A stretch of 34,659 bases of DNA, taken from the IMG/VR virus record IMGVR_UViG_3300013285_000040, positions 1-34,659 of that record; one strand, 5' to 3'. The stretch comes from a virus. The notes beneath the pieces are model-generated. The model was not told the DNA's origin and made no database searches. It saw only the letters and a list, made by a program, of their open reading frames with translations. This document shows, in pieces, positions 2,958 through 33,391 of the stretch. The position numbers were made by a program, and so were the translations under genes. Within the stretch, counting starts at the first letter, position 1, and each line of letters starts with the position of its first letter.

Positions 2958-3024
2958 CAGAGACCAACCGGTCTCTGAGATCGCCGAGATCCTACGCTCG
3001 ACGGTCTCAGAGGCAGATTGCCTC
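2958..3024 (+). promoter_or_regulatory. Three-hairpin RNA element, copy A
   Basis: This is a 67-nt structured stretch. Hairpin 1 pairs CAGAGACC with GGTCTCTG around an AACC loop (2958-2977). Hairpin 2 (2974-3011) is a stem of about 15 positions, with one mismatch and one G-U, around the loop ATCCTACG. Hairpin 3 pairs GAGGCA with TGCCTC (3010-3024). Hairpins 1 and 2 compete for TCTG at 2974-2977. Homologous copies of 67-68 nt are at 4485 and 33324. A ribosome site and ATG follow 23 nt later. Confidence 0.75.
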
Positions 3025-3046
3025 CACAAACATCGAAGGAGACACG

Positions 3047-3412
3047 ATGACAGAAACAAAGCAAACATCATTTCAGATAGGTGACGTGGTGAGCATCACC
3101 GACGCGCTTGATCGGACATACCAAGCCACAGTCGAGTTCCATAGGGGCACGTCGTTGCTGGTGAATCCTCTTGCGGGTGAGCAGGTGACGATCATTGTGC
3201 CAGCCGGAGATGTCACACGGATCATCATGCGGCCTTCTGTGGTGCGCTCATCTCTTGCCACAATGGTCACGGATTGGGACGACCTCACCGAGAGCAATCA
3301 GATGTTCTGGTGCATTGAAGCCGAGGAGTCGATCATCGAGACTGGTCACTTCGAGATCTCTGGACGTCACAACGGTTCAGGAGTTCCACAACACATTGAA
3401 GGTGGAGTATGA
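3047..3412 (+). CDS. Hypothetical protein with SH3-like N-terminus and DWD-TESN module
   Basis: This encodes 121 residues. Its ATG follows GAAGGAGACACG, which is identical to the start region at 4581. The N-terminal half (QIGDVVSITDALDRTYQATV) has the pattern of a small SH3-like beta barrel. The C-terminal half (TDWDDLTESN, then IIETGHFEI) is clearly paralogous to the gene at 33126 (MDWDELTESN, then IQETGHFEV). It lies directly after structured RNA copy A, so its translation is the most likely target of that element. No known function was recognised. It overlaps the next gene by four bases. Confidence 0.75.
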   Translation: MTETKQTSFQIGDVVSITDALDRTYQATVEFHRGTSLLVNPLAGEQVTIIVPAGDVTRIIMRPSVVRSSLATMVTDWDDLTESNQMFWCIEAEESIIETGHFEISGRHNGSGVPQHIEGGV

Positions 3413-3768
3413 ACGTCTCTTTGTTTGACCAAGCCGTTCAAGTGGTGAATGACGCCAACCAGATGCTCGCAAGGGTTGTCACAGAGCAGGCAATCTCACA
3501 GGTTGAGCGCAACGCCGACGAGGAATGGAAGCGCCAGGCTCGTCGAGCAATCAAGGAGGTGGCGCACGATCTCGGATTCTTTACGACAGACGACGTGTGG
3601 CTCTACCTGGAAACGCTCGGCATCGACGCACCGCACGAACCGCGTGCACTCGGAGCAATGATTCGAGAAGCAAAAACAAATCGAGTCATCGTTGCAACTG
3701 GCCGCTACAAGAAGTCAAGTCGAGTCGAGTGTCATTCTCGACCCGTGATGATCTGGGAGGCACGATGA
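3409..3768 (+). CDS. Winged-helix DNA-binding-like phage protein
   Basis: This encodes 119 residues, with the ATG overlapping the previous stop. The first 45 residues are helical. The second half, FTTDDVWLYLETLG, then RALGAMIREA, NRVIVATGRYKKSSR and SRPVMIWEA, matches the layout of a small family common in actinobacterial phages, often labelled helix-turn-helix DNA binding. There a helix pair is followed by a beta wing carrying conserved GRY, HSRP and W residues. A regulatory or DNA-metabolism role is likely. The pattern match is from memory and no specific target can be named. Confidence 0.65.
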   Translation: MNVSLFDQAVQVVNDANQMLARVVTEQAISQVERNADEEWKRQARRAIKEVAHDLGFFTTDDVWLYLETLGIDAPHEPRALGAMIREAKTNRVIVATGRYKKSSRVECHSRPVMIWEAR

Positions 3769-3941
3769 CTGAGCGCGTGGTTGGAGCGGTGTTCAAGGAG
3801 CGCACACCGGAAAGCGTCAGAGAGATTCTGCGGCTCGCCGCCGATCATCTCACCGCGTACATGGAGGAAGCGCGGATCGTGGACACCGGCACGATGAGCC
3901 TGATTCGAGAACTTGACGTCATGAGAGGAGAGGTGCTTTGA
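3765..3941 (+). CDS. Small helical hypothetical protein
   Basis: This encodes 58 residues from ATG 3765, which overlaps the previous stop (ATGA). The frame is open further upstream, but that part shadows the preceding gene. The product is predicted to be mostly helical (TPESVREILRLAADHLTAYMEEAR) with an acidic balance. No motif was recognised. It closes cassette A and ends 24 nt before the next repeated element. Confidence 0.6.
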   Translation: MTERVVGAVFKERTPESVREILRLAADHLTAYMEEARIVDTGTMSLIRELDVMRGEVL

Positions 3942-3965
3942 GGAAAGGCTCAAACACCAATAACC

Positions 3966-3980
3966 GCAAGGGTTCTCAGG
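3966..3980 (+). repeat. 15-bp promoter-proximal element, copy 3
   Basis: GCAAGGGTTCTCAGG matches the core at 2657-2671 with one change. It ends six bases before the TAGACA -35 box, nearly the same distance as in cassette A. AACC and GGTT around the GCAAG part can pair weakly. It is probably a protein-binding site linked to these promoters. Confidence 0.55.
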
Positions 3981-3986
3981 TATGGC

Positions 3987-4014
3987 TAGACAGGGTGGCT
4001 AGGTGTGGTATCTT
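3987..4014 (+). promoter_or_regulatory. Sigma70-like promoter, cassette B
   Basis: TAGACA (3987-3992) and TATCTT (4009-4014) are separated by 16 bp. The stretch TAGACAGGGTGGCTA is identical to that of the promoter at 32868. The -10 ends six bases before ATG 4021, the same distance as in the two sister promoters. Confidence 0.65.
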
Positions 4015-4020
4015 TGACAC

Positions 4021-4464
4021 ATGGAGACAAACGGCAAAGGAGCCAGCAAAATGGACACAACAACCAAAGTCCGAATCACAACGATAACGGGAGACTACCG
4101 ATCTTTGGGCGACGAGGGACTTCACATAACAGCATTGGGTGAACCGACGGCACATCGCGTCTTGGACAACAAGGGGAAACCAAGAATCGAACTTCGTGTT
4201 GACGGCAAGACGGTTCACTCAATCGGTGGAGAAAAGAAAATGCCCTGGGTGAGAAGTATTGTTGTGGAACCAACAGATCCTCGTATGAGCGTTATGGCTC
4301 CTCACACCGAATATGTGTGGGACATAGATTCAACAAGTGAGTCGGAAGAACGGGCGGCTCAAGTTGCTCGTCGGAAATCAAAGCCCAATCAAGATGGAAC
4401 CACTCATGACGTGCGCGCTCTTACGGTTCGGGACGAGACCAAGGCAAGTCGAGTGGAGTCATGA
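4021..4464 (+). CDS. Hypothetical protein of promoter cassette B
   Basis: This encodes 147 residues from ATG 4021, or 137 from the in-frame ATG 4051. As in the sister cassettes, the first ATG would be at the transcription start and the second has AAAGGAG upstream. The leader peptide METNGKGASKM resembles METTTIKGAKNM. The body is beta-rich (VRITTITGDY, HRVLDNKGKPRIELRV) with an acidic, serine-rich C-terminal part (DSTSESEERAAQ). No family was recognised. It is followed by structured RNA copy B. Because promoter and leader are shared but the bodies differ, this looks like a slot that carries different cargo genes. Confidence 0.75.
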   Translation: METNGKGASKMDTTTKVRITTITGDYRSLGDEGLHITALGEPTAHRVLDNKGKPRIELRVDGKTVHSIGGEKKMPWVRSIVVEPTDPRMSVMAPHTEYVWDIDSTSESEERAAQVARRKSKPNQDGTTHDVRALTVRDETKASRVES

Positions 4465-4484
4465 ACAACGTCGATTACTAGAGC

Positions 4485-4551
4485 CAGAGACCAACCGGTC
4501 TCTGTGAGTCTTGAGATCCTACGCTCAAGACTCACAGAGGTAGATTGCCTC
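4485..4551 (+). promoter_or_regulatory. Three-hairpin RNA element, copy B
   Basis: This is the best-formed copy, 67 nt. Hairpin 1 is the same 8-bp CAGAGACC stem with an AACC loop (4485-4504). Hairpin 2 is a perfect 15-bp stem around ATCCTACG (4501-4538). Hairpin 3 pairs GAGGTA with TGCCTC, with one G-U (4537-4551). The stem-2 bases differ from copy A while pairing and loop are kept. Hairpins 1 and 2 share TCTG at 4501-4504. Confidence 0.8.
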
Positions 4552-4580
4552 GAAGGAAAACAAACATCGAAGGAGACACG

Positions 4581-4796
4581 ATGCAAGTTACAGAATACAA
4601 AAACATGAAGGCCGGAGATCTGGTTCGGATCAAAGGTGAGCGCGGAACATTCAAGGTGATGTGGGTCGAGCAGTTTGAGACCAAGCGCCCAGACGAGATC
4701 ACCGTCGTCGGTGGTTCAAGTGGCCGCAACGCGTGGCGCACCTTCCTCGCAGAGCGAGTGACACGCCGACCCAAGCGTCAGCAGGTCACACGATGA
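4581..4796 (+). CDS. Small SH3-like beta-barrel protein
   Basis: This encodes 71 residues from ATG 4581. That start is chosen because GAAGGAGACACG precedes it exactly as at 3047; the frame is open 36 nt further up but without a ribosome site. The sequence MKAGDLVRIKGERGTFKVMWVEQFE has the spacing of a KOW- or SH3-like barrel, which often binds nucleic acid or protein. The C-terminal end is basic (RVTRRPKRQQ). It lies downstream of structured RNA copy B. The function is unknown. Confidence 0.7.
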   Translation: MQVTEYKNMKAGDLVRIKGERGTFKVMWVEQFETKRPDEITVVGGSSGRNAWRTFLAERVTRRPKRQQVTR

Positions 4797-4984
4797 CCGA
4801 GCGCCACCACAAGGGGGGAGATGGCCAGCCGTTGCCAAGCGTCGCCAAGATCCGAGAGAACTACATCAAAGGTCACTACGATGGCCCGTCCCAGGGAGCG
4901 GTGCTGGCTCTGCTTGCTGAAGTCGAGCGACTCAAGAACCTGACCGAGATGCTTCAGCAACTGAAAACAGGTGAGCAATCGTGA
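4793..4984 (+). CDS. Small hypothetical protein with C-terminal helix
   Basis: This encodes 63 residues, with the ATG overlapping the previous stop (ATGA). The N-terminus is polar and His/Gly-rich. The C-terminal part (AVLALLAEVERLKNLTEMLQQL) is a leucine-rich amphipathic helix with a heptad-like pattern, consistent with a short coiled coil and oligomerisation. No family was recognised. It is coupled to the cysteine-rich gene that follows. Confidence 0.6.
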   Translation: MTERHHKGGDGQPLPSVAKIRENYIKGHYDGPSQGAVLALLAEVERLKNLTEMLQQLKTGEQS

Positions 4985-5241
4985 GTCACTCGTGCGAGGA
5001 CTGTCAAGGCAACACGTCGAGCGGAAGCCCGTGCGCAGATGGTTGCGAGGATTGTCCATGCGAGTCAGAGAGCGAGCCCGAGTTGTTGGCGTCGTCGGAC
5101 GTAGTTTGTAATCATCACGGGTTGCCAAACGACATGCCGCCTTGTCATTGTGAGAAGTGTGACTGTGACTGCCACGCCGACAACGAACTCGACGTGCCGG
5201 ACTTTGACCGACGCGACGATGACAAAGGCGACTGGTTATGA
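4981..5241 (+). CDS. Cysteine-rich acidic protein
   Basis: This encodes 86 residues from GTG 4981, overlapping the previous stop (GTGA). About a dozen cysteines occur in close pairs (CEDC, CEDCPC, CHCEKCDCDCH), between acidic stretches. The density suggests binding of several metal ions, as in metallothionein-like or multi-zinc miniproteins. No known fold can be assigned. Its stop overlaps the start of the methyltransferase, so the two are translated together, and a partnership is possible but not shown. Confidence 0.65.
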   Translation: MSHSCEDCQGNTSSGSPCADGCEDCPCESESEPELLASSDVVCNHHGLPNDMPPCHCEKCDCDCHADNELDVPDFDRRDDDKGDWL

Positions 5242-5900
5242 AACTTCTTGACTTATTCTGTGGCGCTGGTGGTGCGGCGATGGGATATCATCGCGCTGGA
5301 TTCGAGGTAGTGGGAGTTGACAGCAAACGTCAACGAGATTATCCATTCGAGTTTCATCAGGCAGACGCTATGACATTCCCCTTAGAAGGGTTCGACGTTA
5401 TTCACGCTTCGCCTCCATGTCAGGCATACAGCATCACAAAGCATTCTCACAAAAAACAACACCCTGACTTATTAGGCCCAACTCGTGAGCGACTAGTGGC
5501 TAGTGGCTTGCCCTATGTCATCGAAAATGTTCCAGGGGCTTCAATGCCTGGTTCGGTTGTGATGTGTGGCGCTTCGTTCTTTCTGACAGCAAACGACATC
5601 AACGGTGACTTATTGGTTCTCAAACGACACCGACAGTTTGAATCAAACATGACGCTGGAAGAACGTAAGTGCATGTGTAAATGGTTCAAGGATCGACAAT
5701 ACAAAATCGGTGGTGTTTATGGTGGGGGGTCAACTGATCGCCATCACGCTGAGAAGGTGCGTCATGGGGGATACACTCCCGCCAAGGAAGTAAGAGAAGG
5801 ACTTATGGGTATTGACTGGATGAGTATGGCAGCTCTGAATCAAGCAATACCTCCTATTTACACAAAGTTCATCGGGCATCAAATACTGGAACAAATATGA
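5238..5900 (+). CDS. DNA (cytosine-5-)-methyltransferase
   Basis: This encodes 220 residues. Motif I is FCGAGGAAMGY (7-17), which binds S-adenosylmethionine. Motif IV is SPPCQAYS with the catalytic Cys61. Motif VI is ENV (96-98), and the C-terminal NQAIPPIYTKFIGHQI corresponds to motifs IX-X. At 220 residues it is short for the family (often over 300) because the target-recognition region is small, but all catalytic motifs seem intact. It would modify phage DNA, most likely to evade restriction; no cognate nuclease is adjacent, so it is probably an orphan. Leucine TTA codons and T-ending codons are much commoner than in the neighbours, which suggests recent acquisition. Confidence 0.92.
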   Translation: MKLLDLFCGAGGAAMGYHRAGFEVVGVDSKRQRDYPFEFHQADAMTFPLEGFDVIHASPPCQAYSITKHSHKKQHPDLLGPTRERLVASGLPYVIENVPGASMPGSVVMCGASFFLTANDINGDLLVLKRHRQFESNMTLEERKCMCKWFKDRQYKIGGVYGGGSTDRHHAEKVRHGGYTPAKEVREGLMGIDWMSMAALNQAIPPIYTKFIGHQILEQI

Positions 5901-6022
5901 ACGTACTGAGAAAGTGTCGAGCCTGTAAGAAGCGAACGCCGCACCGACAACTCGGCACCACCGGCTCGCTTGCTTGCGTTCTCTGTGAGCGCAGGACCAC
6001 CGACCACCTCAAGCAATCATGA
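5897..6022 (+). CDS. 41-residue zinc-ribbon miniprotein
   Basis: The ATG overlaps the methyltransferase stop (ATGA). CRAC near the start and CVLC near residue 30 form two CxxC knuckles spaced as in a zinc ribbon, with many basic residues between them (KKRTPHRQ). Such small ribbons are common in phage early regions and usually bind nucleic acid or a protein partner. It is coupled to the next small gene. Confidence 0.6.
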   Translation: MNVLRKCRACKKRTPHRQLGTTGSLACVLCERRTTDHLKQS

Positions 6023-6138
6023 CGGTCTGCAAGAACTGTGGACTGACCATCACGAAGAAAGGTCGTGAGTGGCGTCATAGCAAAACCGGATTCTGGAAAT
6101 GCCTAACAAAACACGCTGAACCAGGGGAGACAAAATGA
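6019..6138 (+). CDS. 39-residue zinc-finger-like miniprotein
   Basis: It starts at ATG 6019, overlapping the previous stop, and ends in an overlap with the nuclease gene. CKNC near the start and a later Cys/His pair (WKCLTKH) could form one zinc site. Half the residues are charged or polar. The tight ATGA overlaps on both sides are the main evidence that it is translated. The function is unknown. Confidence 0.55.
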   Translation: MTVCKNCGLTITKKGREWRHSKTGFWKCLTKHAEPGETK

Positions 6139-7064
6139 TTGAAGAAGCATCGGTAGTTGACGTAGACACAGCCGAGGACGACGACGAGCGTATGTATTCA
6201 GTTACAACGCTCATCGGTTGCTTGGACAAACCGGCGCTGATCCATTGGGCCGCAAGTGAAACGGCAAAACTGGCGGTGGCCGACCCTCAGCACGTTCAGT
6301 CAATGATCGACATTGACGGAGAGGAAGCGGCGATCAAGTATCTGTCCGGCGCTCGCAATCGTCGAGACGACGGCTCGCTCTCCGCCAGCGACCTCGGCAC
6401 CGCAGTTCACTCGGCGTTGGAGCAGTACGCAAAGACGGGGAGAATCATTCACGACGGCTCTGAGGTCGTCCCCTACGTTGAGCAGTTTGACAAGTGGAGC
6501 CAAGAGTTCCAACCGGATTGGATCGCAAACGAAGTCACGTTATTCTCGCCGACCTATCGCTACGCCGGCACCTGTGATGGCTACTTGAAGATCGACGGTG
6601 TGCCGCTCATCATGGACTTCAAGACGTCAAGGAAAGAATCAAAGGCCTATGCTGAGGTCTCACTCCAGCTCGCCGCCTACCGTTTCGCAGAGATGCAAGC
6701 GACCTGGCGAGCGCGACGAACCGAAGTAATGAAGCGCCGGTATTACCTGCTCAACGACACGGAGGTCTCACTTGCTGAGTCGCCACCGGAAGTCGAGGGA
6801 GGAATCGTCATCAAGATCTCGCCGGAATCCTGCAAGGCATATCCGGTGAAGTGTGACAAAGAAATGTTCAGATCTTTCCTCTATGTGACAGAGGCGGCAC
6901 GATGGTCATTCGATCTCTCAAAGATCGCCGTCGGTGCTGAACTAATCAAGGGAGAGGAGGTGGCGGAACGCGTCTCCACGTTTCTTCCTAAGAAACGTAC
7001 CAAGCGTTCTGCCGCCACCCTCCCTGCTACCAACGTCAAACTGTCAAGCGAGGAGCAATCATGA
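6135..7064 (+). CDS. RecB/Cas4-like PD-(D/E)XK exonuclease
   Basis: This encodes 309 residues. The RecB-type nuclease motifs are in order: GTAVHSALEQY (about 86-97), AGTCDGYL with the metal-binding Asp (about 144-151), IMDFKTS with the D-x-K pair (about 158-164), and QLAAY (about 178-182). The C-terminal tail is basic and low in complexity (KKRTKRSAATL). These nucleases resect double-stranded DNA and in phages commonly work with a single-strand annealing protein. Here the partner is probably the ERF protein encoded across the window ends, so the pair would form a recombination system, though the genes are not adjacent. Confidence 0.85.
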   Translation: MIEEASVVDVDTAEDDDERMYSVTTLIGCLDKPALIHWAASETAKLAVADPQHVQSMIDIDGEEAAIKYLSGARNRRDDGSLSASDLGTAVHSALEQYAKTGRIIHDGSEVVPYVEQFDKWSQEFQPDWIANEVTLFSPTYRYAGTCDGYLKIDGVPLIMDFKTSRKESKAYAEVSLQLAAYRFAEMQATWRARRTEVMKRRYYLLNDTEVSLAESPPEVEGGIVIKISPESCKAYPVKCDKEMFRSFLYVTEAARWSFDLSKIAVGAELIKGEEVAERVSTFLPKKRTKRSAATLPATNVKLSSEEQS

Positions 7065-7201
7065 GCAAGAGAACACCAGGGCCCAAGTGGGCGATGAAGC
7101 AGTCTAAAGAGAAGTACCAGGCTGAACGCCAGCGGCATCGTGATCGAGTAGCTCGACGTCAAACAACGGAACAAACAGTTGCTACGGAGGACAACAAATG
7201 A
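7061..7201 (+). CDS. Small highly basic protein
   Basis: This encodes 46 residues, with ATGA overlaps at both ends. The composition is dominated by Lys, Arg and Gln (YQAERQRHRDRVARRQ), forming a probable single basic helix. A nucleic-acid contact is possible. No family was recognised; the call rests on the translational coupling and the clean open frame. Confidence 0.55.
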   Translation: MSKRTPGPKWAMKQSKEKYQAERQRHRDRVARRQTTEQTVATEDNK

Positions 7202-7374
7202 GCAAACGTGACCTGATTGACCAACTCGAACGCCGGACGGCTGACTTGCAACGTCAGTTGGAGATCCTCAAAGTTGAGACAGAGAAGTTGGAGACCGGTG
7301 TTTGGGACGCTCTGGAGGCTCTGTTTGCTTCAATGGAACTCAAGTTGGTTCGGGTGCCACAGGAGGAAGAATGA
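7198..7374 (+). CDS. Small coiled-coil protein
   Basis: This encodes 58 residues. Leucines recur in heptads (LIDQLERRTADLQRQLEIL), indicating a coiled coil over residues 6-45. The C-terminus is acidic (VPQEEE). ATGA overlaps link it to both neighbours. It may be an oligomeric accessory factor; the function is unknown. Confidence 0.55.
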   Translation: MSKRDLIDQLERRTADLQRQLEILKVETEKLETGVWDALEALFASMELKLVRVPQEEE

Positions 7375-7448
7375 CTGAAGTTTGGTTGGCGCTGGTCACG
7401 GGTCTCTGTGTCGGGCTGGTGGTTGGCATTATTATCGGGACAGCATGA
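7371..7448 (+). CDS. 25-residue single-pass membrane peptide
   Basis: The whole peptide is one transmembrane segment, ALVTGLCVGLVVGIIIGTA, after a short polar start. ATGA overlaps at both ends argue that it is translated. Tiny membrane peptides are frequent in phage early operons. A membrane-targeting or membrane-modifying role is an inference. Confidence 0.5.
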   Translation: MTEVWLALVTGLCVGLVVGIIIGTA

Positions 7449-7747
7449 ACGACGAACCAACAATCAAGATAGCTCAGTCCGAATATCGGGCGCTCACAAA
7501 CATCGCAATCACGGCAGAGCAATACCTTCGCTCAGGCTCAACTGAACTCGCCGAGGAACTCCGAGACGCCGTGTTGGTCTCTCGAATCTACTCAGACGAT
7601 GACGTCAAGGACGAAGTGAAACTCACGCTCAGACAAGACCTGGTGGACTTCATGGACGAGGAGTTGATTCTTATTATTGAGAACTCAGACATCGCAGATG
7701 CGGGCCGAGCCTCAGAGATCCGTCGGGCTATCCAAGACCTCGGCTGA
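7445..7747 (+). CDS. Acidic helical hypothetical protein
   Basis: This encodes 100 residues from ATG 7445 (overlap with the previous stop). It is strongly acidic and helical (YRALTNIAITAEQYLRSG, ELAEELRDAVLV, DFMDEELILIIENS). The acidity would suit a DNA mimic or a protein-binding factor, but no family could be assigned. It ends 18 nt before the next gene. Confidence 0.6.
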   Translation: MNDEPTIKIAQSEYRALTNIAITAEQYLRSGSTELAEELRDAVLVSRIYSDDDVKDEVKLTLRQDLVDFMDEELILIIENSDIADAGRASEIRRAIQDLG

Positions 7748-7765
7748 CCACCTAGAATCGTCCGC

Positions 7766-8167
7766 ATGGGCGAGCATGACGAGATCACAAACCACACAAC
7801 CGGAGACTCTCGGTTCTTCGATCTGCTCCTCGAACTCGCCGGAATGCACTCGGCTAAGTCGAACGATTACGGACTGAATGACGATGAGGACGACATTGAA
7901 AGTTTCATAACCGCAGATCCTCTGTTCAACTTCAGAGGCTCGGTTCTGTTTGGTGTTGACCCCTGGGTCGGTTGCATGATTCGACTCGGCGACAAATACT
8001 CACGACTCCAAACTCTTGCGGCTGGCAACGAGTTGCAAAACGAGAACGCCAGAGACACCTTTCTCGACCTCGCAAGTTACGCGCTCATCGCACTTCTACT
8101 GTACGAGGATGACATGATCGAGGACGAAGAAGTTGACGCAGACCCCTTTGAGGAAGGCGACGAGTAG
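7766..8167 (+). CDS. DUF1599-like (nucleotide modification-associated) helical protein
   Basis: This encodes 133 residues. The pattern DYGLNDDEDD, then VGCMIRLGDKYSRLQTL, NARDTFLDLASYALIAL, resembles the small all-helical DUF1599/Nmad1 proteins of phages, distantly similar to MazG-type pyrophosphohydrolases. In that family conserved Asp/Glu/Lys residues lie on the same helices. The C-terminal 25 residues are almost entirely acidic. Suggested roles for the family are nucleotide hydrolysis or processing linked to modified DNA. The neighbouring methyltransferase is consistent with a DNA-modification theme. The family call is from pattern only. Confidence 0.6.
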   Translation: MGEHDEITNHTTGDSRFFDLLLELAGMHSAKSNDYGLNDDEDDIESFITADPLFNFRGSVLFGVDPWVGCMIRLGDKYSRLQTLAAGNELQNENARDTFLDLASYALIALLLYEDDMIEDEEVDADPFEEGDE

Positions 8168-8177
8168 CGTTCTAAGA

Positions 8178-8522
8178 ATGAACGTCAACACCTTAGAGAA
8201 AGACTTCCAAGCCCAGGTCATTGAACTTGCTCACATTCTCGGTTATCGGATCGCACACTTTCGACCAGCGCAAAACTCAAAAGGACAATGGCGCACGCCG
8301 GTCTCTGCCGACGGCAAAGGGTTCCCCGACCTCGTACTCGTGCGACCAGACTTCAATACGAAAGGCAGGCCGAAGCGCATGATCTTTGCAGAGTTGAAAA
8401 GTAACACCGGACGCCTCTCGAAAGAGCAAGGCGAGTGGCTGGAAGATCTTGCAGGTGCTGGCGTTGAGAGTTACCTGTGGAGGCCGAAGGACTGGGACGA
8501 CATTGTGGAGATTCTTCGCTAG
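8178..8522 (+). CDS. VRR-NUC domain nuclease
   Basis: This encodes 114 residues from ATG 8178. The motifs of this stand-alone PD-(D/E)XK fold are present: GFPDLVLVRP with Asp51, FAELKSNTG with Glu72 and Lys74, then SKEQGEWL with Gln84 and the closing VESYLWRPKDWDDI. Phage VRR-NUC proteins are thought to be structure-specific nucleases that process replication or recombination junctions. A Holliday-junction resolving role beside the RecB-like nuclease and ERF would fit, but is an inference. Confidence 0.85.
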   Translation: MNVNTLEKDFQAQVIELAHILGYRIAHFRPAQNSKGQWRTPVSADGKGFPDLVLVRPDFNTKGRPKRMIFAELKSNTGRLSKEQGEWLEDLAGAGVESYLWRPKDWDDIVEILR

Positions 8523-25254: not shown

Positions 25255-28200
25255 TGGCACAGCCGAATCTCTCGCTCCCCTCCATCTCCGTTCAGTTCGC
25301 ATTCACGGATCTCCAAACCGGAGTCACACCAACGGCGTTCTCTCGACAGACCGTGAACGTCACAAACGTCGGTCAAATCGTTACTTTTATTGCAGGTTTC
25401 GGTGGACAGTTGGTGCTTGATTCGTTTGGAAGTATCACACCCCAAACGACGAGCGGCCAGGTGACGCTTCTGAAAGGCTCAACCCTTTACACGATTACCT
25501 ATTCCAGCGCGCTATTTGTAGGCGGTCAGTATGTTCTGTCTAGTCCCGTTATAACGTCTCCCCCCCTTGCATCGTTCACAACTGACGGCACCGAGATAAT
25601 CTTATTGTGGAACTGGTACGAAACAGGCTCTTATGTTCGCGACATATCAACTCGAATGGGTCGTCAACACGAACTAGACCGAACTGAATCCTCATCAGCA
25701 CAGTTCATTCTTGAAAGTCGTGATGGTCGTTGGCTTCCCTGGTCGACATCAGCATTCAGTTACACCTCAGTCACAACCGGAGCAACCGACTCGCTTGTGT
25801 CGTCAACGATTCTGAAAGTTGGAGTTCCCGTCAAGATCACAGCAACCTGGAACGGTACAACGTATCCGGTGTTCTTCGGGTTTGTAGACCAATGGGAACC
25901 GAGCGCACTTGACGAAGTTGAAGTTGACACGACGGTGATCTGCACCGACCTGCTCAAGAAACTTTCAGTCACTCGACTATCCAACTCATCGCTCTATTGG
26001 CAGACGGCACTAAACCCAATCAAGAACACCAGCATCACCCCTGACGTTCTTCGACTGAACGATCAACCTTCACTCGCAACGGGCAAAGTGTCTTTGCGAA
26101 ATAGTGGCGTGGGTGGATTCATCACAAGCGGCGTCGCTGGTTCGGGATTGACGCTCTCTGCGACAAGCAACGTGACAATCAACTTCTCCCGATATTCCAC
26201 CGCTACTTCACTTCCCCTCCAACCTTCTAACGGCACCTTCCAACTTTGGGCGAATGGTCGACAACTCACAGTCGCTTACACCACCGCCACTTCTTCTGGA
26301 ACGGCGTGGACTTTCACCGGTTGTCGATTGACACAACCTGGGCAAACTTACGTCACGAACTTAGGTGACTACATCATCGGTGGAGTTGCTACCGGCTCGG
26401 TTGGCATCGGCATGACTGCCGCAAACGCACCTGCCGCCGCCGCTCTTGTCACTTCTTCATTCAATCAAAATGGGCCACTACTCTATGACCCGACCTCTCA
26501 GGGAATCGACTTGACGAATGGCGGTGGGGTTACACACCCTGCACTTGGAATCACAATCTCAAACGGTTCGGCTTACTACAACTCTGTTGCGGCAATCACT
26601 AACGCTGGCACCGGCTACACGGGTGAAGCGTGGTTCAAGGGGACTCAGCCTGGCGACTCACTCATTCAGATCGTTGATGCGATTCGTTCGGCACCCAATA
26701 TCTATTCATACGTTCTTCAAGTCTCCACCGCGTCACAGTTGACCGTGTCAATACGAACAACGACCTCAGGTGGAACAACAACGACAACTCTTGGAACCTA
26801 CACATGGGGTCAACAGGTAACCGATGGGAACTGGCATCTCGTCACGTTCAACATTCAAGCAGAGCCAAATAGCGCAAACACTTTCAACTTCTATGCATAC
26901 GTTGACGGCATGAACTGCGGATTCTTTCAGAGCAATATCGCAACACTCGCACCGACATCCGTGAACTTCGGAACCTACACACTCGGAATCTATGCGATTG
27001 CCGCTTCGGTTCCTTACCAGGTTGCCAACTGTAACGCCACAATCTCGGAGGCTTCGTTCTGTTGGGACGATTCAACCTACGCTCCAGCATCGCTCAACAG
27101 AGCAAGGGTCGGTGCGTTCTTTCGAGCGAACGGAGCAATCTCACAGATCTCTCTTTCTGCGGCGATTACGAACACTTCAACAACGACGCTTCCGTTGGTA
27201 AACTCCAACGGCTTTCTTCCTGGCGGTGGATTAGCCGTGCTCGTGTCGTCTAACGGGAGCACCGGAGGAACCTTCAACGCTTATCCGATCTCCTACACCG
27301 GAGTCACGTCAGGAACATCACCAAGCCTTACCGGCGTCAAACTTTATCCACCCGTCTTGACGACCACGACAACCGTCAACGCTGGTCTAAGCGGCTCGGG
27401 TAGCGCGTACGAAACAGTCCTGCACTCGCAGGGAACTTCAACCGGATATCGAATGAAAGACGTTGCCGAGGTGGTTGGATTAGCACCTGCCGATGGTTCA
27501 ACCACATTGACAACAACACCTCTGAGTTACTCGGCAGGAGCGATTAGTCAACTAGCACTAGAGCAGGGTGCAGTCTATTCAACGAGCGCTCTCGACTATG
27601 GCTTTCAATACGAAGAAACCGAAAACGGGTTCTATTACCAATCGCCTGCCGGAGTTCTTACATTCCTTCCACGCTTTTATCCTCAGACGCACGCACAGAA
27701 CTCGACACAGTTCACCGACTCAGGAACCAGCACCTCGCAAGCTCACTATCTCCCAGCAATCGAGATGGTTCTTGACGACCTTGACACCTGGACAATCGCT
27801 CAAACCACAAACACCGTCGGACAGACTTCGACTACCGTCGATCCAACAGGAACCTACTTGGCTAAATACGGAGCAAGAACCTATTCACGCGGCCAAATGT
27901 GGGCGAATCGCCAGACCGACATTGACGCACTCGGTTCAATGATCGTGAACCGCTACAAACAGCCAATCGTGCGTCCTCGGAAAGTGATGATCGAAAGTAC
28001 TTATTCCGACGGCACGACGCAACCAAATCAAGCCGTACAACTCGGGGCAAACTTATGGGATCAGGTCGTGTTCAATAGAACGGCGTATGGGGCGTCCTAC
28101 GCGCAAACGGTTGTCATTGAATCCATCTCTCACGAATATCAAGCGGAGCCTGGTCGCTGGCGCACCATGTTTGTTCTGTCACCCTACGAAATGAACGGTT

Positions 28201-28832
28201 CGTCAACAGTCAACGCTGGTTCGTTCTTTCGACTTTCAACTTCTACCGGAGCAGCTGATTACTCTAAGTTCCAAACAGCAAAAGGCTCAGTCTCATTTGC
28301 CACAACTCTGTCGTCAAGTGCGTCATCGCTCCAACTGAGTCCAGGCTTTACTGCGATCAACAAACCTTTGGCGCTCTTGCAGTTTCCGACGAGCGGTAAC
28401 ATCTCAATCGCCAGCGCTGGTGGCACGATTCCAGCTTCCTATTCGGGCCGAGCCCAGCCGATCACCAACACCGTTACTGCCGCGACGCTCACAACTTCAT
28501 CGTCGGTGACTCTGACGCTGGGCTCGGTGTCGAACTTCCCAGTCAACGGGGGTCAGTTCTGGTATGTCGCTTCAGGCTCCAACTCGGTCGCGGGGCCTAC
28601 GTACTGGCCATGCTCGTACACCTCCGTTTCGGGATTGACGATTCTTGGGTGCAAGTTGACCAACACCTCGGCGGGTTCAAGCATCCTGACCTCCATTCCT
28701 AACTACGTCATAGGCCCCGCGACGCTAACCGGAGTTTCAACATCGGTTGGCTACACCGGCACCGGCGTAGTCATCGTGGGTGACACGGTGACATATACTA
28801 CCGGCACCGCTCAAGATTCGTTTGGAGGATAA
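25254..28832 (+). CDS. Large tail-tip / adhesion protein
   Basis: This encodes 1192 residues from ATG 25254, which follows directly on the previous stop; the frame is open 42 nt higher but only over the preceding gene. Early residues (about 110-260) resemble distal-tail/baseplate proteins (DISTRMGRQHELDRTESSSA). A concanavalin/LamG-like sandwich lies at about 455-560 (AWFKGTQPGDSLIQIVDAIR; DGNWHLVTFNIQ; FYAYVDG), a fold that often binds carbohydrate. Three copies of a Ser/Thr-rich beta repeat occur near residues 315-380, 635-710 and 1070-1160. The C-terminal half has baseplate-hub-like parts (VMIESTYSDGTTQPN). It probably recognises the host surface. Confidence 0.8.
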   Translation: MAQPNLSLPSISVQFAFTDLQTGVTPTAFSRQTVNVTNVGQIVTFIAGFGGQLVLDSFGSITPQTTSGQVTLLKGSTLYTITYSSALFVGGQYVLSSPVITSPPLASFTTDGTEIILLWNWYETGSYVRDISTRMGRQHELDRTESSSAQFILESRDGRWLPWSTSAFSYTSVTTGATDSLVSSTILKVGVPVKITATWNGTTYPVFFGFVDQWEPSALDEVEVDTTVICTDLLKKLSVTRLSNSSLYWQTALNPIKNTSITPDVLRLNDQPSLATGKVSLRNSGVGGFITSGVAGSGLTLSATSNVTINFSRYSTATSLPLQPSNGTFQLWANGRQLTVAYTTATSSGTAWTFTGCRLTQPGQTYVTNLGDYIIGGVATGSVGIGMTAANAPAAAALVTSSFNQNGPLLYDPTSQGIDLTNGGGVTHPALGITISNGSAYYNSVAAITNAGTGYTGEAWFKGTQPGDSLIQIVDAIRSAPNIYSYVLQVSTASQLTVSIRTTTSGGTTTTTLGTYTWGQQVTDGNWHLVTFNIQAEPNSANTFNFYAYVDGMNCGFFQSNIATLAPTSVNFGTYTLGIYAIAASVPYQVANCNATISEASFCWDDSTYAPASLNRARVGAFFRANGAISQISLSAAITNTSTTTLPLVNSNGFLPGGGLAVLVSSNGSTGGTFNAYPISYTGVTSGTSPSLTGVKLYPPVLTTTTTVNAGLSGSGSAYETVLHSQGTSTGYRMKDVAEVVGLAPADGSTTLTTTPLSYSAGAISQLALEQGAVYSTSALDYGFQYEETENGFYYQSPAGVLTFLPRFYPQTHAQNSTQFTDSGTSTSQAHYLPAIEMVLDDLDTWTIAQTTNTVGQTSTTVDPTGTYLAKYGARTYSRGQMWANRQTDIDALGSMIVNRYKQPIVRPRKVMIESTYSDGTTQPNQAVQLGANLWDQVVFNRTAYGASYAQTVVIESISHEYQAEPGRWRTMFVLSPYEMNGSSTVNAGSFFRLSTSTGAADYSKFQTAKGSVSFATTLSSSASSLQLSPGFTAINKPLALLQFPTSGNISIASAGGTIPASYSGRAQPITNTVTAATLTTSSSVTLTLGSVSNFPVNGGQFWYVASGSNSVAGPTYWPCSYTSVSGLTILGCKLTNTSAGSSILTSIPNYVIGPATLTGVSTSVGYTGTGVVIVGDTVTYTTGTAQDSFGG

Positions 28833-29257
28833 TGCCGTACACCTGGAACAGCATCAACACCCACACGGCTGGCGAAGTGCTACCGATAGCCGATTGGAAC
28901 CAAGCCGCAATCGCGATGAACGGCATGGTCGGAACGTGGACGACCACCGGCTTGATGCAGGGTGCGACTACAACGGCAAACGGCTCACCACCGTTCTACT
29001 GTTACTTCGGTTTTACAGCAGTTACCCTCAACTCTTCGAGTTATGGCACAATCACAATCCCCAACGGAGGATTCCCGAACGGCACCATCTTGGCGATGAC
29101 GCAGATCGGTTCAAGTTCTTATCCTGGGTACACAACATTCACTCTTGGGTCGTTTACAAACGCAACCACCGTTACGTTCCTGGTGTCAAACGCCGCAGGA
29201 ACAGCGCCAGGTGCAGTTACGATCTCACAACTACAGTTCTTCATCATCGGCTATTAG
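28832..29257 (+). CDS. Small tail-tip accessory protein
   Basis: This encodes 141 residues, with the ATG overlapping the tail-tip stop (taATG). The first 30 residues (TWNSINTHTAGEVLPIADWN) are a short motif often found at the N-terminus of phage tail-tip proteins. The remainder is beta-rich and Thr/Ser/Gly-rich (FTAVTLNSSSYGTITIPNGG), consistent with a fibre tip or receptor-binding piece. No family was identified. It precedes the endolysin. Confidence 0.65.
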   Translation: MPYTWNSINTHTAGEVLPIADWNQAAIAMNGMVGTWTTTGLMQGATTTANGSPPFYCYFGFTAVTLNSSSYGTITIPNGGFPNGTILAMTQIGSSSYPGYTTFTLGSFTNATTVTFLVSNAAGTAPGAVTISQLQFFIIGY

Positions 29258-29265
29258 GAGCAAAC

Positions 29266-30141
29266 ATGACAGACGTTCGAGATCAAATAGTGAAATGGGC
29301 AAGATGGGGCGTGGACAATCACGCTGGCTTCACCTACACCGAGGGCGGCAACCGCATGGAGGGCATCGGTCACCCTGGCGTTCCGTGCCATTGTGACTGC
29401 TCAGCGTTCGTGACGCTCTGTTACAACTGGGCCGGAGCGCCCGACCCCAACGGTCAGGGCTATGACGGACAGGGATACACCGGCACGCTTCTCTCACACG
29501 GCGTCGTGATCATGAAGAACCAAGCGGTGCCAGGCGACGTTGTTGTTTACGGAGCAGGGACGGGAGATCACACGGCGATGATCGTCGAAGCAGGCAACGA
29601 CCCTATGACAGTTTCAATGGGTGAGCAGGGCGACCCCAACTACATTCGAGTCTCGCAGGACGGGCGACAGCCACAGCGATTCCTTCGTTTCAGCACCACC
29701 GGCGGAGGACAGCCAGCACCGGCTCCAAAACCTCAACCGAGTCAACAGCACATCATTGTTCCTGGCGTGAGTGTCCAGCAGGTTCAAGCGAAGGTCGGAG
29801 TTGCTCAAGATGGAGCATGGGGGCCGATCACCCAAGGGGCCGTTCTTGCCTTCCAGCATTCTCACAACCTCACAGCCGACGGGATCGTTGGGCCGCAGAC
29901 TTGGGGCGCTATGAACGCTTCTCCCAAACCACCGTCACCGACCCCCACGAACCGACCTGCGTTGGCTCAGGGGGCCACAGGGGACGCCGTGAGGGTGCTT
30001 CAGCAACGCCTCGGAGCACTCGTAGTTGACGGTCAGTTCGGGCCAGCGACAGCCAACCGACTCCGCCAATGGCAAGGACAGCACGGTCTAGCCGCCGACG
30101 GCGTTTGTGGGCCGCTCACTTGGGCCGCTCTCGGGGGTTGA
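29266..30141 (+). CDS. Endolysin: NlpC/P60 peptidase with two peptidoglycan-binding repeats
   Basis: This encodes 291 residues from ATG 29266 after a GGAG. Residues about 1-140 form an NlpC/P60-type peptidase: CDCSAFVTLCYNW with probable nucleophile Cys45, then PGDVVVYGAGTGDHTAMIV with His102. A Pro-rich linker (APAPKPQPSQ) follows. Two PG_binding_1 repeats follow: VSVQQVQAKVGVAQDGAWGP to TWGAM, and GDAVRVLQQRLGALVVDGQFG to TWAAL. It cleaves peptidoglycan peptides at the end of infection. There is no signal peptide, so release depends on a holin, probably the next gene. Confidence 0.92.
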   Translation: MTDVRDQIVKWARWGVDNHAGFTYTEGGNRMEGIGHPGVPCHCDCSAFVTLCYNWAGAPDPNGQGYDGQGYTGTLLSHGVVIMKNQAVPGDVVVYGAGTGDHTAMIVEAGNDPMTVSMGEQGDPNYIRVSQDGRQPQRFLRFSTTGGGQPAPAPKPQPSQQHIIVPGVSVQQVQAKVGVAQDGAWGPITQGAVLAFQHSHNLTADGIVGPQTWGAMNASPKPPSPTPTNRPALAQGATGDAVRVLQQRLGALVVDGQFGPATANRLRQWQGQHGLAADGVCGPLTWAALGG

Positions 30142-30142
30142 G

Positions 30143-30451
30143 ATGTTGGCATTCACTCGGGGAGACTGGAACATCTGGTTGAGTATTCTGACGTCGGTTG
30201 GCTTCATCATCGGAATGATCTTTGGAACGTATCGTCACTTCCACAAAAAACTTCTGTCGTCAATCGTTGAGCAGATCAAACCAATGGCTCAAGCGGTTCA
30301 GCCAAACGGCGGATCAAGCATGGCCGATGGAGTGAATCGGATTGAGTGTGAGTTGAATCGCCAAGGCGTCGAACTGGATTCACTTACGATTCGACTTGAG
30401 AAGCACCTTTCGTATCATCAGGGTCGAGAGTCGGCGATGGCGGAGAAATGA
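30143..30451 (+). CDS. Putative holin (one membrane segment, cytoplasmic coiled coil)
   Basis: This encodes 102 residues. One transmembrane segment (WLSILTSVGFIIGMIFGTY, about 12-30) follows a short N-terminus. The remainder is polar with a helical end (VNRIECELNRQGVELDSLTI). Single-pass proteins of this size directly after the endolysin are commonly holins or holin partners in phages of Gram-positive hosts. It begins 1 nt after the endolysin stop and overlaps the next gene (ATGA). Confidence 0.65.
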   Translation: MLAFTRGDWNIWLSILTSVGFIIGMIFGTYRHFHKKLLSSIVEQIKPMAQAVQPNGGSSMADGVNRIECELNRQGVELDSLTIRLEKHLSYHQGRESAMAEK

Positions 30452-30579
30452 CCATCACGCTTCCTGACGTCACGTTCATTCCAGGCGTTCGCGAGGACGG
30501 CGGATTCTGCAACGGAATGTGCGAGGACTGCGACTGTCGACAGAAAGACGACCCTGACATTGAGATCGAAGAATGGTAA
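30448..30579 (+). CDS. 43-residue acidic cysteine-containing miniprotein
   Basis: The ATG overlaps the holin stop. Cysteines cluster as CNGMCEDCDC, and the rest is acidic (DDPDIEIEEW). It resembles the cysteine-rich protein at 4981 in style but not in alignable sequence. It is the last gene of the lysis unit. Function is unknown. Confidence 0.55.
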   Translation: MTITLPDVTFIPGVREDGGFCNGMCEDCDCRQKDDPDIEIEEW

Positions 30580-30597
30580 TCATCACCTCCTCGACGA

Positions 30598-30631
30598 TTG
30601 ACGCGCACTTGGGCTTCGGGTCTAGTAGTAT
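30598..30631 (+). promoter_or_regulatory. Possible sigma70-like promoter
   Basis: TTGACG (30598-30603) is followed by a TAG-rich -10 region (TCTAGTAGTAT, 30621-30631). The best spacing is 17-19 bp depending on which hexamer is used. It lies in the 88-nt gap between the lysis unit and the next pair of genes, where a new promoter would make sense. It lacks the repeated element of the other promoters. Confidence 0.35.
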
Positions 30632-30667
30632 TTCACCAGGCAACCCACAGGCGAACAGGGAGAACCA

Positions 30668-30919
30668 ATGGCACTTCGAGACGCTATGGAGCAATCCAAA
30701 ACTTCGTGCAAAACGACGCTCATAGTTGAGAGGCTTGACGCCGAGGACTTGGCAACGCTTGAAGAATGGATCAGTCGAGGCTTCTCAATCATGAGCATCG
30801 CAAGGGCGATCTCGACTGACAACCCCGAAAACAAAGTTGCCGACGACACGTTGCGAAAACACTTTATGGGTTCGTGTTCGTGCTCCCCCACATCAAAACT
30901 GTTTGGAGTTTTGTCATGA
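30668..30919 (+). CDS. Small helical protein preceding the phosphoesterase
   Basis: This encodes 83 residues after GGGAGAACC. The middle part (DLATLEEWISRGFSIMSIARAI, then ADDTLRKHFMGSC) has the layout of a helix-turn-helix ending in a Thr-Leu-Arg-x-His recognition helix and CSC. Small proteins of this kind often sit immediately before a calcineurin-like phosphoesterase in actinobacterial phages. It overlaps that gene (ATGA). DNA binding is an inference. Confidence 0.65.
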   Translation: MALRDAMEQSKTSCKTTLIVERLDAEDLATLEEWISRGFSIMSIARAISTDNPENKVADDTLRKHFMGSCSCSPTSKLFGVLS

Positions 30920-32085
30920 GCCTGAAGGATCGAAACATTGGGCCACCACAAAAACACCCGAAGGGCTGGGAGCCTGGAGTGACCTGGAACGGTGAGACCG
31001 GCGAAGTCTCATCGGGGCCGATGGAGGAAGCACCGAACGACGAACTGTGGAATGAGATTGTCAAAGACTTCGGCGTGACCAACTCGGTAAGCATCATTCC
31101 TGGTTCGATTCAGATTCGAGCCTGGGACACGTACGGCGGACGCATGAAGTACTACCGTGCGAGGCTTGAGCCGACCAGCATCGACGATGAATCACGCGCC
31201 GACATCGAGGCTTTGTGTAAGATCATTGAGCGCCGCCGACCACTCGCACAACTGGACGAGGTGAGTGGCGGCGAGCGCGCATTGGTAGTTGCTCTCGCAG
31301 ACTGGCAGGTTGGCAAGAGAGACGTGAACGGTGGGACGCCGGAGTTCCTTGAGCGATTGCTTCTCACCTTTGACCGGTTAGAACGGCACGCCAAAACCCT
31401 CAAGAAAACTCACGGGATCAACACGGTCTACATCGTCGGACTCGGAGACCTCATCGAGAACTGTGACGGACACTACGCCGCTCAGACCTTCTCGGTGGAT
31501 CTTGACAGGAGAGAACAATGCCGACTCGTTCGCCGAATGATCCTTGACCTAGTGGAAAGATTCGTCAAGATGAACTGGCGTGTGGTACTCGGAGCGGTGC
31601 CAGGGAATCACGGAGAGAACCGACGCAACGGCAAAGCCTTCACGAACGTCTTTACCGACAATGATGACCTCGCCGTGTTCGAGCAAGTGGCCGAGATCCT
31701 CGACCACAACGTCGAGCGTTACAGCAACGTCTCAGTCCCAAGCGGAGCTATAGCCGAGGATCACACGATGACCCTCGACGTCGCCGGCGTTGCCGTCGGC
31801 TTCGCTCACGGGCATCAAATCAAGGGTGGCGCTCCTCTGTGGTGGCAGAAGCAGGCGCACGGCAAACAGCCAGTCGGCTCGGCGGACATTCTGGTGACCG
31901 GACACTTCCATCACCTCTCGCTCAGCGAAGGATCAGGTCGAACGTGGATTCAAGCCCCAGCGATGGATGGTGGCTCAAGATGGTGGACAGCGCAGACCGG
32001 CTCCTCAGCGCCGTCAGGAATGCTCACCTTTGTCGCAGGCTCAGCTTGTGGTGAACGCGGCTGGAGTGACTTCGCGATTCTTTGA
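30916..32085 (+). CDS. Calcineurin-like metallophosphoesterase
   Basis: This encodes 389 residues. The phosphoesterase motifs appear in order: ADWQVGK (about 127), GLGDLIENCDGH (about 174-185), PGNHGENRR (about 228), FAHGHQIKG (about 295) and TGHFHHL (about 326). These coordinate two metal ions. The N-terminal about 100 residues are unlike a known domain. Related proteins in phages are annotated as Mre11/SbcD-like nucleases or phosphatases. It sits at the end of the rightward late region, so the role is uncertain; DNA processing is one possibility. Confidence 0.88.
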   Translation: MSLKDRNIGPPQKHPKGWEPGVTWNGETGEVSSGPMEEAPNDELWNEIVKDFGVTNSVSIIPGSIQIRAWDTYGGRMKYYRARLEPTSIDDESRADIEALCKIIERRRPLAQLDEVSGGERALVVALADWQVGKRDVNGGTPEFLERLLLTFDRLERHAKTLKKTHGINTVYIVGLGDLIENCDGHYAAQTFSVDLDRREQCRLVRRMILDLVERFVKMNWRVVLGAVPGNHGENRRNGKAFTNVFTDNDDLAVFEQVAEILDHNVERYSNVSVPSGAIAEDHTMTLDVAGVAVGFAHGHQIKGGAPLWWQKQAHGKQPVGSADILVTGHFHHLSLSEGSGRTWIQAPAMDGGSRWWTAQTGSSAPSGMLTFVAGSACGERGWSDFAIL

Positions 32086-32100
32086 GTACCAAACTACTCA
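32083..32100. terminator. Hairpin between converging genes
   Basis: TGAGTA-CCAAAC-TACTCA forms a 6-bp stem overlapping the phosphoesterase stop, in the 28-bp gap between two converging genes. A further CAAAACTACTCA lies just downstream (about 32108-32119). The stem is short, AT-rich and without a T-run, so termination is only weakly supported. Confidence 0.25.
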
Positions 32101-32113
32101 ATCGAGCACAAAA

Positions 32114-32629
32114 CTACTCAGCGAGCGCCTCGTAAAGTTGCGCCGGCGAAACCATGTAGACATCTCGCCAATCGTGAATCCAACCTCCGGCTCGAAGTGA
32201 CTCGCCAACTAGCGCCGAACAGATCCACGTTCCAGGCTTTCTGATTGTGAGGAACCAGGGAACGACGATGCTCACGGCAATCGAGAAGATCGTGACAAAA
32301 CCGTAAGAGTCTGAGACTTGCGCGTCGGCAAAGTCAACCGCTCGCAACACCGACGTCAAACTTGACGGTGGCTTCACGATAACGACCTCGCCGTTGGAAG
32401 TGATGTCACTTGGACTTGAGAACCACTTGCTCGTCACTCCTCGACTCTCGGCCTGAACAATGCGAACTCGACCAGGTTCAACGCCGACGATGATTGCCGC
32501 GTGGTTCCACCTGTGACCGCCACGCCACCGAAGCCACTCTCCAAACTGAATCGCTCGACCAATGAAGTCTCTGCGCGCGTGCGCAAAGATCACGTCACCG
32601 ACGCTCAACTGTGTTGGATCGCTGGACAT
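32114..32629 (-). CDS. Permuted papain-like (YiiX/NlpC-type) hydrolase, leftward
   Basis: This encodes 171 residues from ATG 32629; a TTG six bases upstream is an alternative. The order of motifs is that of permuted NlpC/P60-like enzymes: LSVGDVIFAHARR, then His43 in RWNHAAIIVG, IVQAESRGV, and the candidate nucleophile Cys137 in TWICSALVGESLRAGG. A hydrophobic segment (FVTIFSIAVSIVVPWFL, about 111-127) separates the two parts, so the protein may associate with membrane. Such enzymes act on peptides or lipids. With its small partner, this is the only leftward unit in the window and is separately controlled, as for a moron gene or a host-interaction function. Confidence 0.75.
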   Translation of the reverse strand: MSSDPTQLSVGDVIFAHARRDFIGRAIQFGEWLRWRGGHRWNHAAIIVGVEPGRVRIVQAESRGVTSKWFSSPSDITSNGEVVIVKPPSSLTSVLRAVDFADAQVSDSYGFVTIFSIAVSIVVPWFLTIRKPGTWICSALVGESLRAGGWIHDWRDVYMVSPAQLYEALAE

Positions 32630-32778
32630 TGACAACCTCGTTTCTCAAGTCGTTCAATCACTTCGGCTACCGCCAGGGGTAATCGTTGAAACGGAATCCC
32701 AATCACATCACCGGCGTACAGATTGTGGCGGCACCCGCACGGCAGCTTGAGGATTAGTTCGGCGTTGCGCATGGGCAT
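32605..32778 (-). CDS. Small leftward protein with cysteine pairs
   Basis: This encodes 57 residues from ATG 32778 (or 32772, same frame), ending inside the start of the papain-like gene with a 25-base overlap. CGCRH near residue 14 and CQCP near residue 49 could bind zinc, and between them lies a helix (LPLAVAEVIERLEKRG). The overlap and continuous leftward frame suggest an operon of two. No strong ribosome site is visible, so confidence is moderate. Confidence 0.5.
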   Translation of the reverse strand: MPMRNAELILKLPCGCRHNLYAGDVIGIPFQRLPLAVAEVIERLEKRGCQCPAIQHS

Positions 32779-32824
32779 CTGAACCTACACATTTTCTCCG
32801 TTAGGCGTCAGGTCAAAGATTATG

Positions 32825-32859
32825 AACCCTCAAAACCCTTGCTATTACTAGTGTTTCAC
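32825..32859 (-). repeat. 35-bp element, copy 2 (inverted relative to 2640-2674)
   Basis: On the minus strand it contains ACTAGTAATAGCAAGGGTT and matches 2640-2674 at 31 of 35 positions. It lies between the leftward operon and the rightward promoter at 32868. A CATAAT -10-like hexamer for the leftward operon follows at 32824-32819. It is therefore shared by two divergent units, as an operator would be. Confidence 0.6.
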
Positions 32860-32867
32860 GGTACGAC

Positions 32868-32896
32868 TAGACAGGGTGGCTAAGTGTGTATATACT
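32868..32896 (+). promoter_or_regulatory. Sigma70-like promoter, cassette C
   Basis: TAGACA (32868-32873) and TATACT (32891-32896) have a 17-bp spacer. TAGACAGGGTGGCTA is identical to the cassette B promoter. The -10 ends six bases before ATG 32903, as in the two sister promoters, so transcription should start at or next to the A of that ATG. Confidence 0.7.
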
Positions 32897-32902
32897 GAAC
32901 TC

Positions 32903-33097
32903 ATGGAAACAACCACTATCAAAGGAGCCAAGAACATGAACATCTGGACACAAGACATCTGCACCATTCTCGGGTGCGACGTATACCGAGCCCAACGAAT
33001 CCAAGACGAGATGGGTGCCCAAGGTTTTAGTTTTAGCAACTCATCAACGGAAGAGTTCAAGAAAGAAGTGTTCTCGGTTGCAACCGAGATTGCTTGA
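32903..33097 (+). CDS. Small protein of promoter cassette C
   Basis: This encodes 64 residues from ATG 32903, or 53 from in-frame ATG 32936, which has AAAGGAG upstream. The leader METTTIKGAKNMN is identical to that at 2714 through the second ATG, but the body differs (IWTQDICTILGCDVYRAQRI; FKKEVFSVATEIA). The body is helical and polar, with no known family. Sharing promoter and leader peptide with unrelated bodies indicates recombination at this junction. Confidence 0.7.
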   Translation: METTTIKGAKNMNIWTQDICTILGCDVYRAQRIQDEMGAQGFSFSNSSTEEFKKEVFSVATEIA

Positions 33098-33125
33098 CAC
33101 AACCACCAAAAAAGGAGACAACAAA

Positions 33126-33320
33126 ATGATAGTGACGAGAACACAAGAAAAAGAAATCGAACACCAACTAGCGGAGACCATCATGGACTGGGACGAACTC
33201 ACCGAAAGCAATCGTTGGGCGTGGGTTCAGTCGGCCATTGACGCCATCCAAGAGACCGGCCACTTCGAGGTTGCCGCTCACGCAAATATGTACGGACAAC
33301 TTCGGTACATCGAAGTTTGA
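33126..33320 (+). CDS. DWD-TESN module protein, paralogue of the gene at 3047
   Basis: This encodes 64 residues after AAAGGAGACAACAAA. Residues about 18-50 (IMDWDELTESN, then AIDAIQETGHFEV) align without gaps to the C-terminal half of the protein at 3047, so one was derived from the other. Here the module stands alone without the SH3-like part. It ends directly before structured RNA copy C, whereas the 3047 gene lies after copy A. Function is unknown. Confidence 0.7.
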   Translation: MIVTRTQEKEIEHQLAETIMDWDELTESNRWAWVQSAIDAIQETGHFEVAAHANMYGQLRYIEV

Positions 33321-33323
33321 TTA

Positions 33324-33391
33324 CCGAGACCAATAGGTCTCGGTGGTTGCCGAGCGCTCCCCGTTCAACAACCACCGAGGCAAGTTGCTTC
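33324..33391 (+). promoter_or_regulatory. Three-hairpin RNA element, copy C
   Basis: This is a 68-nt divergent copy. Hairpin 1 pairs CCGAGACC with GGTCTCGG around AATA (33324-33343), a compensatory A-T to C-G change from copies A and B. Hairpin 2 is a 10-bp stem, TCGGTGGTTG with CAACCACCGA (33340-33378), with a larger, changed loop. Hairpin 3 pairs GAGGCA with TGCTTC (33377-33391). Hairpins 1 and 2 share TCGG at 33340-33343, the same 4-nt overlap as in the other copies. Confidence 0.75.

Follow-up and report, generated by a model that had tools for sequence, protein, structure and literature searches.

The window analysed here is the whole 34,659-nucleotide stretch of IMG/VR record IMGVR_UViG_3300013285_000040, an uncultured virus with siphophage-type genes for terminase, portal, tape measure, endolysin and exonuclease. 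The protein encoded at 16749-18443 matches the annotated major capsid protein of Arthrobacter phage Sonali, and because relatives of the exonuclease in phage records occur mostly in actinobacteriophages, an actinobacterial host is likely; a search of GTDB genomes with a major capsid protein profile gave no relative and hence no host. Between early genes of this phage and its relatives lies an element of about 70 letters, found three times in the window. Each copy can fold into three hairpins in series (H1, H2 and H3) or into an alternative rod. In the near relative G004 the window's end and start lie about 420 bp apart, and the three copies therefore fall in one early region:

2954-3024, + strand: copy A, with H1 at 2958-2977, H2 at 2977-3008 and H3 at 3010-3024
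2971-3014, + strand: alternative (rod) helix of copy A, in which 2971-2976 pairs with 3009-3014
4481-4551, + strand: copy B, with H1 at 4485-4504, H2 at 4504-4535 and H3 at 4537-4551
4498-4503 paired with 4536-4541, + strand: rod helix of copy B
33320-33391, + strand: copy C, with H1 at 33325-33342, H2 at 33342-33376 and H3 at 33377-33391
33337-33342 paired with 33376-33381, + strand: rod helix of copy C

The minimum free energy folds of A, B and C are three hairpins in series (-35.0, -37.8 and -35.0 kcal/mol), with + strand z-scores of -5.66, -5.62 and -6.10 and none of 200 shuffles equally good; the - strand folds are weaker (z -3.4 to -4.7). Scanning the window with the full model returned A, B and C as the sole matches, at 82-94 bits, and apart from the copies' own reverse strands the rest lay at or near 8 bits or below. 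These results bear out the original prediction of three copies with three hairpins in series. As it had stated, A and B share an identical loop, ATCCTACG, and a Shine-Dalgarno sequence (SD) plus ATG lies downstream of both. The sharing of bases between neighbouring stems is also real, although the prediction understated it, as complementarity between arm 1' and arm 3 is complete across six pairs.

The original prediction had proposed a covariance model built from the three copies and a search of Rfam. The model (R1) recovered nine copies on seven other virus contigs: L039/G001 (two), L040/G002, G039 (two), G040, G041, G042 and G072. Those of G039a, G040 and G072 are apparently the same element sequence, leaving ten distinct sequences overall with the window copies included. 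A refined model (R2) found nothing further in 49 records, and a DNA search of INPHARED returned nothing. The family is narrow, since pattern scans of viral contigs add no believable member. Other H1-pattern matches in those contigs were chance H1 palindromes or coding sequence, with those in L091, L127, L097, L098, L128, L087, L093, L106 and L121 corresponding to part of the coding sequence, read in frame, of a single gene family, and the H3-only matches in L248 and L249 look coding. In GTDB genomes, a gap pattern gave three proteobacterial matches, which were rejected as a stretch common to them that lacks the H1 palindrome. No Rfam 15 covariance model reached its gathering score; the sub-threshold matches were mir-1421 to the L040 rod and a 16-bit match to S15. 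Judged by these searches, no described RNA family matches the element.

Across the nine aligned distinct copies, 95.8% of cells in the three-hairpin structure are paired, compared to 33-39% when it is slid by one to three columns. Double changes occur at ten pairs, nine of them among the eleven counted pairs of H2, and the sequence and loop length of H2 are free to vary; the conserved letters lie in H1, H3 and their loops. H1-H3 contain 20 G-U cells against 7 A-C cells, and as a structure on the other strand would give the reverse, it is the + strand RNA that is selected. The aligned sequences are few and related, and we regard the covariation support as good but not overwhelming. Covariation had originally been claimed from three copies alone, a weak basis with A and B 83% identical, and it is the homologues that now supply it; their compensatory changes, together with the empty Rfam search, uphold the proposal of a functional, undescribed structured RNA with competing stems.

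The element can form three hairpins or one long rod, which are mutually exclusive and both conserved. Arm 1' (GGTCTCG) is complementary to arm 1 and also to arm 3 (CGAGRC), and arm 3' can likewise pair with arm 3 and, in part, with arm 1. In the rod, the helix between arm 1' and arm 3 stacks on H2, which forms the tip, and is extended by pairing between loops 1 and 3, which are partly complementary (CANU with ANUUG). Arm 1' is paired with arm 3 in 54 of 54 cells and H1 is paired in 63 of 63, so that two mutually exclusive pairings are conserved as in a bistable RNA. A double change at the base pair of the helix between arm 1' and arm 3 exchanges G-C for U-A and involves arm 1 too. Among the arms of H1 and H3, arm 1' is variable only where the position covaries with both partners, and the outer arms 1 and 3' vary mainly by changes that keep a G-U pair. 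RNAfold predicts the rod for L039a, L040, G039b and G041 and three hairpins for A, B, C, G039a and G042, with the hairpins beating the rod by 3.4-4.7 kcal/mol in A and B. When H1 and H3 are randomised for comparison, most copies prove to have an unusually good alternative fold (fractions 0.003-0.21), a modest excess of bistability per copy among copies that are not independent. Considered alone, the rod-specific pairs show little covariation relative to shuffles.

Every copy occupies the gap between the end of one gene and the start of the next. A predicted promoter-operon usually carries a single element, placed after its first or second gene. The stop-to-start gap is about 95-130 nt, and in copies that have a next start codon it lies 22-36 nt past the element. 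In seven of the ten distinct copies, covering four upstream gene contexts, 3-4 nt separate the upstream stop codon from H1; the exceptions are L039a (14 nt), L039b (10 nt) and L040 (24 nt). The 4 nt between stop and arm 1 differ in letters and keep their length. For copy B the nearest stop is the TAG of a six-codon mini-ORF, 3 nt before H1:

2951-2953, + strand: TAA stop of the upstream gene 2747-2953, 4 nt before H1 of copy A
4461-4481, + strand: mini-ORF MNNVDY, six codons, overlapping the stop of gene 4051-4464
33318-33320, + strand: TGA stop of the upstream gene 33126-33320, 3-4 nt before copy C
2677-2707, + strand: putative promoter of the copy A operon, TTGACA-N19-TATAAT, with an ATG 6 nt on
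3987-4014, + strand: putative promoter of the copy B operon, TAGACA-N16-TATCTT
32868-32896, + strand: putative promoter of the copy C operon, TAGACA-N17-TATACT

Around these promoters we observed leaderless-looking start cassettes (2702-2747, 4009-4051 and 32891-32937) consisting of a -10 box, about 6 nt, and then ATGGAAACAACC...AAGGAGCCAA..ATG. In those copies that were examined, the two ATGs share a reading frame. Similar cassettes occur in G041, G042, G004, L039 and G039. Just upstream of the putative promoters an imperfect palindrome, AACCCTTGCTATTACTAGGGTT-like, is repeated at 2642-2672, 3952-3980 and 32827-32857, one copy being inverted, and is a candidate operator. In L039 (IMGVR_UViG_3300002092_001262), a pentapeptide-repeat-like gene at 255-605 lies between two elements.

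Downstream of the element, the SD often sits in the loop of a further hairpin (H4), with the start codon paired in its arm:

3031-3049, + strand: H4 after copy A, CATCG-AAGGAGACA-CGATG, with the SD in the loop and the start codon of gene 3047-3412 in the 3' arm
4565-4583, + strand: H4 after copy B, CATCG-AAGGAGACA-CGATG, with the start codon of gene 4581-4796 (phrog_1338)

The same hairpin follows L039b, and variants are found in L039a (ATCATC-AAGGAGAC-GATGAT), G004 (ATCGAC-AAGGAGAC-GTCGAT) and G020 (CGGG-AAGGAGAC-CCCG). Among the other starts examined in the window, none showed an SD loop of this compact form with its start codon located in an arm. Copy C has an SD-like GGAAGGGAGAC downstream and no ATG; the short open frame behind it (IWANEYSVRFLNGVRLVNVVWEKNK, 33391-33505) looks like a gene whose start has been lost. 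Directly behind a promoter of G004 comes an H3-like hairpin with no H1 or H2, and then the same linker and H4, the two hairpins alone forming the mRNA leader at the predicted 5' end.

Our preferred reading, held tentatively and with somewhat less than even confidence, is that the element acts in cis as an intercistronic cut-and-cap processing site of early polycistronic messages. The uncut RNA would form the rod or a coaxial stack, and a nuclease that acts on double strands, for example host RNase III, would cut in or near H2. The halves would then refold: H1 would cap the 3' end of the upstream message immediately after the stop codon, and H3 the 5' end of the downstream message. Every outer arm would thus be needed for pairing both in the uncut RNA and again in the cut halves, a double demand that would account for the near invariance of arms 1' and 3 alongside an H2 whose sequence is free to change. 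The covariation of H2, the high fraction of paired cells, the invariant pairing of arm 1' with arm 3, the G-U excess, the copies for which RNAfold chooses the rod and the intercistronic position of every copy all point this way. Upon in silico refolding of the halves, H1 formed in eight of eight copies tested and H3 in six of eight, the exceptions being G039a, with a replacement hairpin, and L040, which lacks H3 after cutting. The lone H3-like leader of G004 looks like the proposed processed 5' end, and the freedom of H2 in sequence and loop is as expected for double-strand recognition. Cut-and-cap processing would account for the dual pairing, the free H2, the intercistronic place, the stand-alone leader and the refolding of halves. 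Against it, A and B prefer three hairpins, and their H2 alone has 11-12 bp, short for RNase III; the bistability excess is modest in non-independent copies, covariation specific to the rod is slight, and the 3-4 nt stop spacing is not specifically predicted. The original prediction had left a switch, a protein target or a processing site; the evidence favours a processing site or a switch, and stem 2, freely rewritten, shows no sign of a sequence-specific site.

The stop spacing is better explained by the main rival, a bistable switch set by the ribosome, which we nevertheless think unlikely overall. A terminating ribosome covers about 11 nt past the stop codon, which here corresponds to arm 1; with arm 1 covered, arm 1' would pair with arm 3, H3 would open, and downstream expression would change through translational coupling or attenuation. 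The 3-4 nt distance across four upstream contexts, including that set by the mini-ORF of copy B, and the kept length of the 4-nt gap despite its changing letters both fit such a switch. So does the contrast between the invariant pairing of arm 1' with arm 3 and that of arm 1 with arm 3', which the ribosome would block and which is poorly kept (pair 10-77 fails in six of nine). The standard H3 has been weakened or replaced in L040 and G039a, where arm 1' pairs more strongly with arm 3 (U.G to U-A), and the frequent placement of the SD in the H4 loop with a paired start codon counts in favour of the switch as well. However, with arm 1 masked the predicted fold changes in most of the copies whose free RNA prefers H1, but there is no consistent change at the SD, whose predicted accessibility falls in A, B and L039b, rises in G039a and is unchanged in C, L039a, G041 and G042; SD sequestration by switching was rejected as inconsistent across copies. 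The wider spacings in L039a, L039b and L040 also speak against the switch. Programmed read-through was discarded, as element lengths differ by non-multiples of three and keep no frame. Translational coupling via intercistronic RNA structure has been reviewed (PMC12548453), and the element resembles it in placing structure between a stop and the next start in a ribosome-sensitive geometry; it differs in its stop-start gap, its two-way fold and its lack of consistent predicted SD exposure.

A rather improbable combination would join these readings: a ribosome on the upstream stop may hide arm 1, tip the three hairpins into the rod and so decide downstream processing or translation, with the same element serving as a fixed joint for the exchange of early cassettes. 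A landing site for a phage or host RNA-binding protein, or a cis antiterminator like HK022 put, influencing polymerase or ribosomes over the remainder of the operon, is also improbable. The usual single element per operon and the conserved letters of H1, H3 and their loops would suit it, but those letters are just the ones that pair twice, H2 is freely rewritten, there is no consistent place relative to transcript starts and Rfam offers no match.

Less probable again is a boundary at the DNA level, kept mainly as shared homology for cassette exchange. G041 and G042 are about 98% identical around the element, yet their upstream genes differ: one is a homologue of the gene preceding A, the other of the gene preceding C. 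The swap is exact: its left breakpoint is the leader SD AAGGAG, its right breakpoint the first base of arm 1, and the element is identical in both. Element C and its flanking genes are likewise absent together from G004. Recombination homology leaves unexplained the rewritten yet paired stems and the one-strand G-U bias, however, and cassette exchange is better read as a consequence. Strong hairpins behind stops are common at operon ends, but chance hairpins or ordinary intrinsic terminators are very improbable, given that the fold z-scores and covarying homologues exclude chance, that the copies lack a G+C-rich stem followed by a T run, with no U-run after the element, and that a terminator scan finds none there.

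Among known systems, the T7 early region carries RNase III processing sites between its early genes. The cut-and-cap reading recalls these in placing several related hairpin elements between early phage genes, able to form a long irregular duplex, with a proposed cut leaving end hairpins. It differs in that three hairpins compete with the rod and both are kept, with the rod not favoured in A and B; cleavage is here a proposal. HK022 put RNAs, which act in cis to make polymerase resist terminators, resemble the present element in being compact adjacent hairpins in early phage transcripts, and differ in lying near the transcript start, the present element being behind the first or second gene. 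In Cluster K mycobacteriophages, SAS and ESAS are repeated intergenic sequences with inverted repeats just upstream of non-structural gene starts, ESAS containing SigA-like promoter hexamers and repeats that do not support RNA pairing (PMC3203893, PMC11373665). Our element shares with them its repetition between genes, inverted repeats before start codons and a probable actinobacterial phage setting, but it keeps RNA pairs through compensatory changes. The three copies contain no promoter-like SigA -35/-10 site, and the SAS consensus GGGATAGGAGCCC does not precede the start codons, the one two-mismatch site (- strand, 8762) being at chance level.

To our knowledge, structured RNAs between phage genes have rarely been described outside T7-like and lambdoid models. 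The compact family described here has genuine homologues and a dual fold kept in evolution, its spacing from the stop codon is strikingly constrained, and an exact gene swap is documented at its edge, so that a single short RNA makes both early-message processing and modular gene exchange testable in these probably actinobacterial phages.
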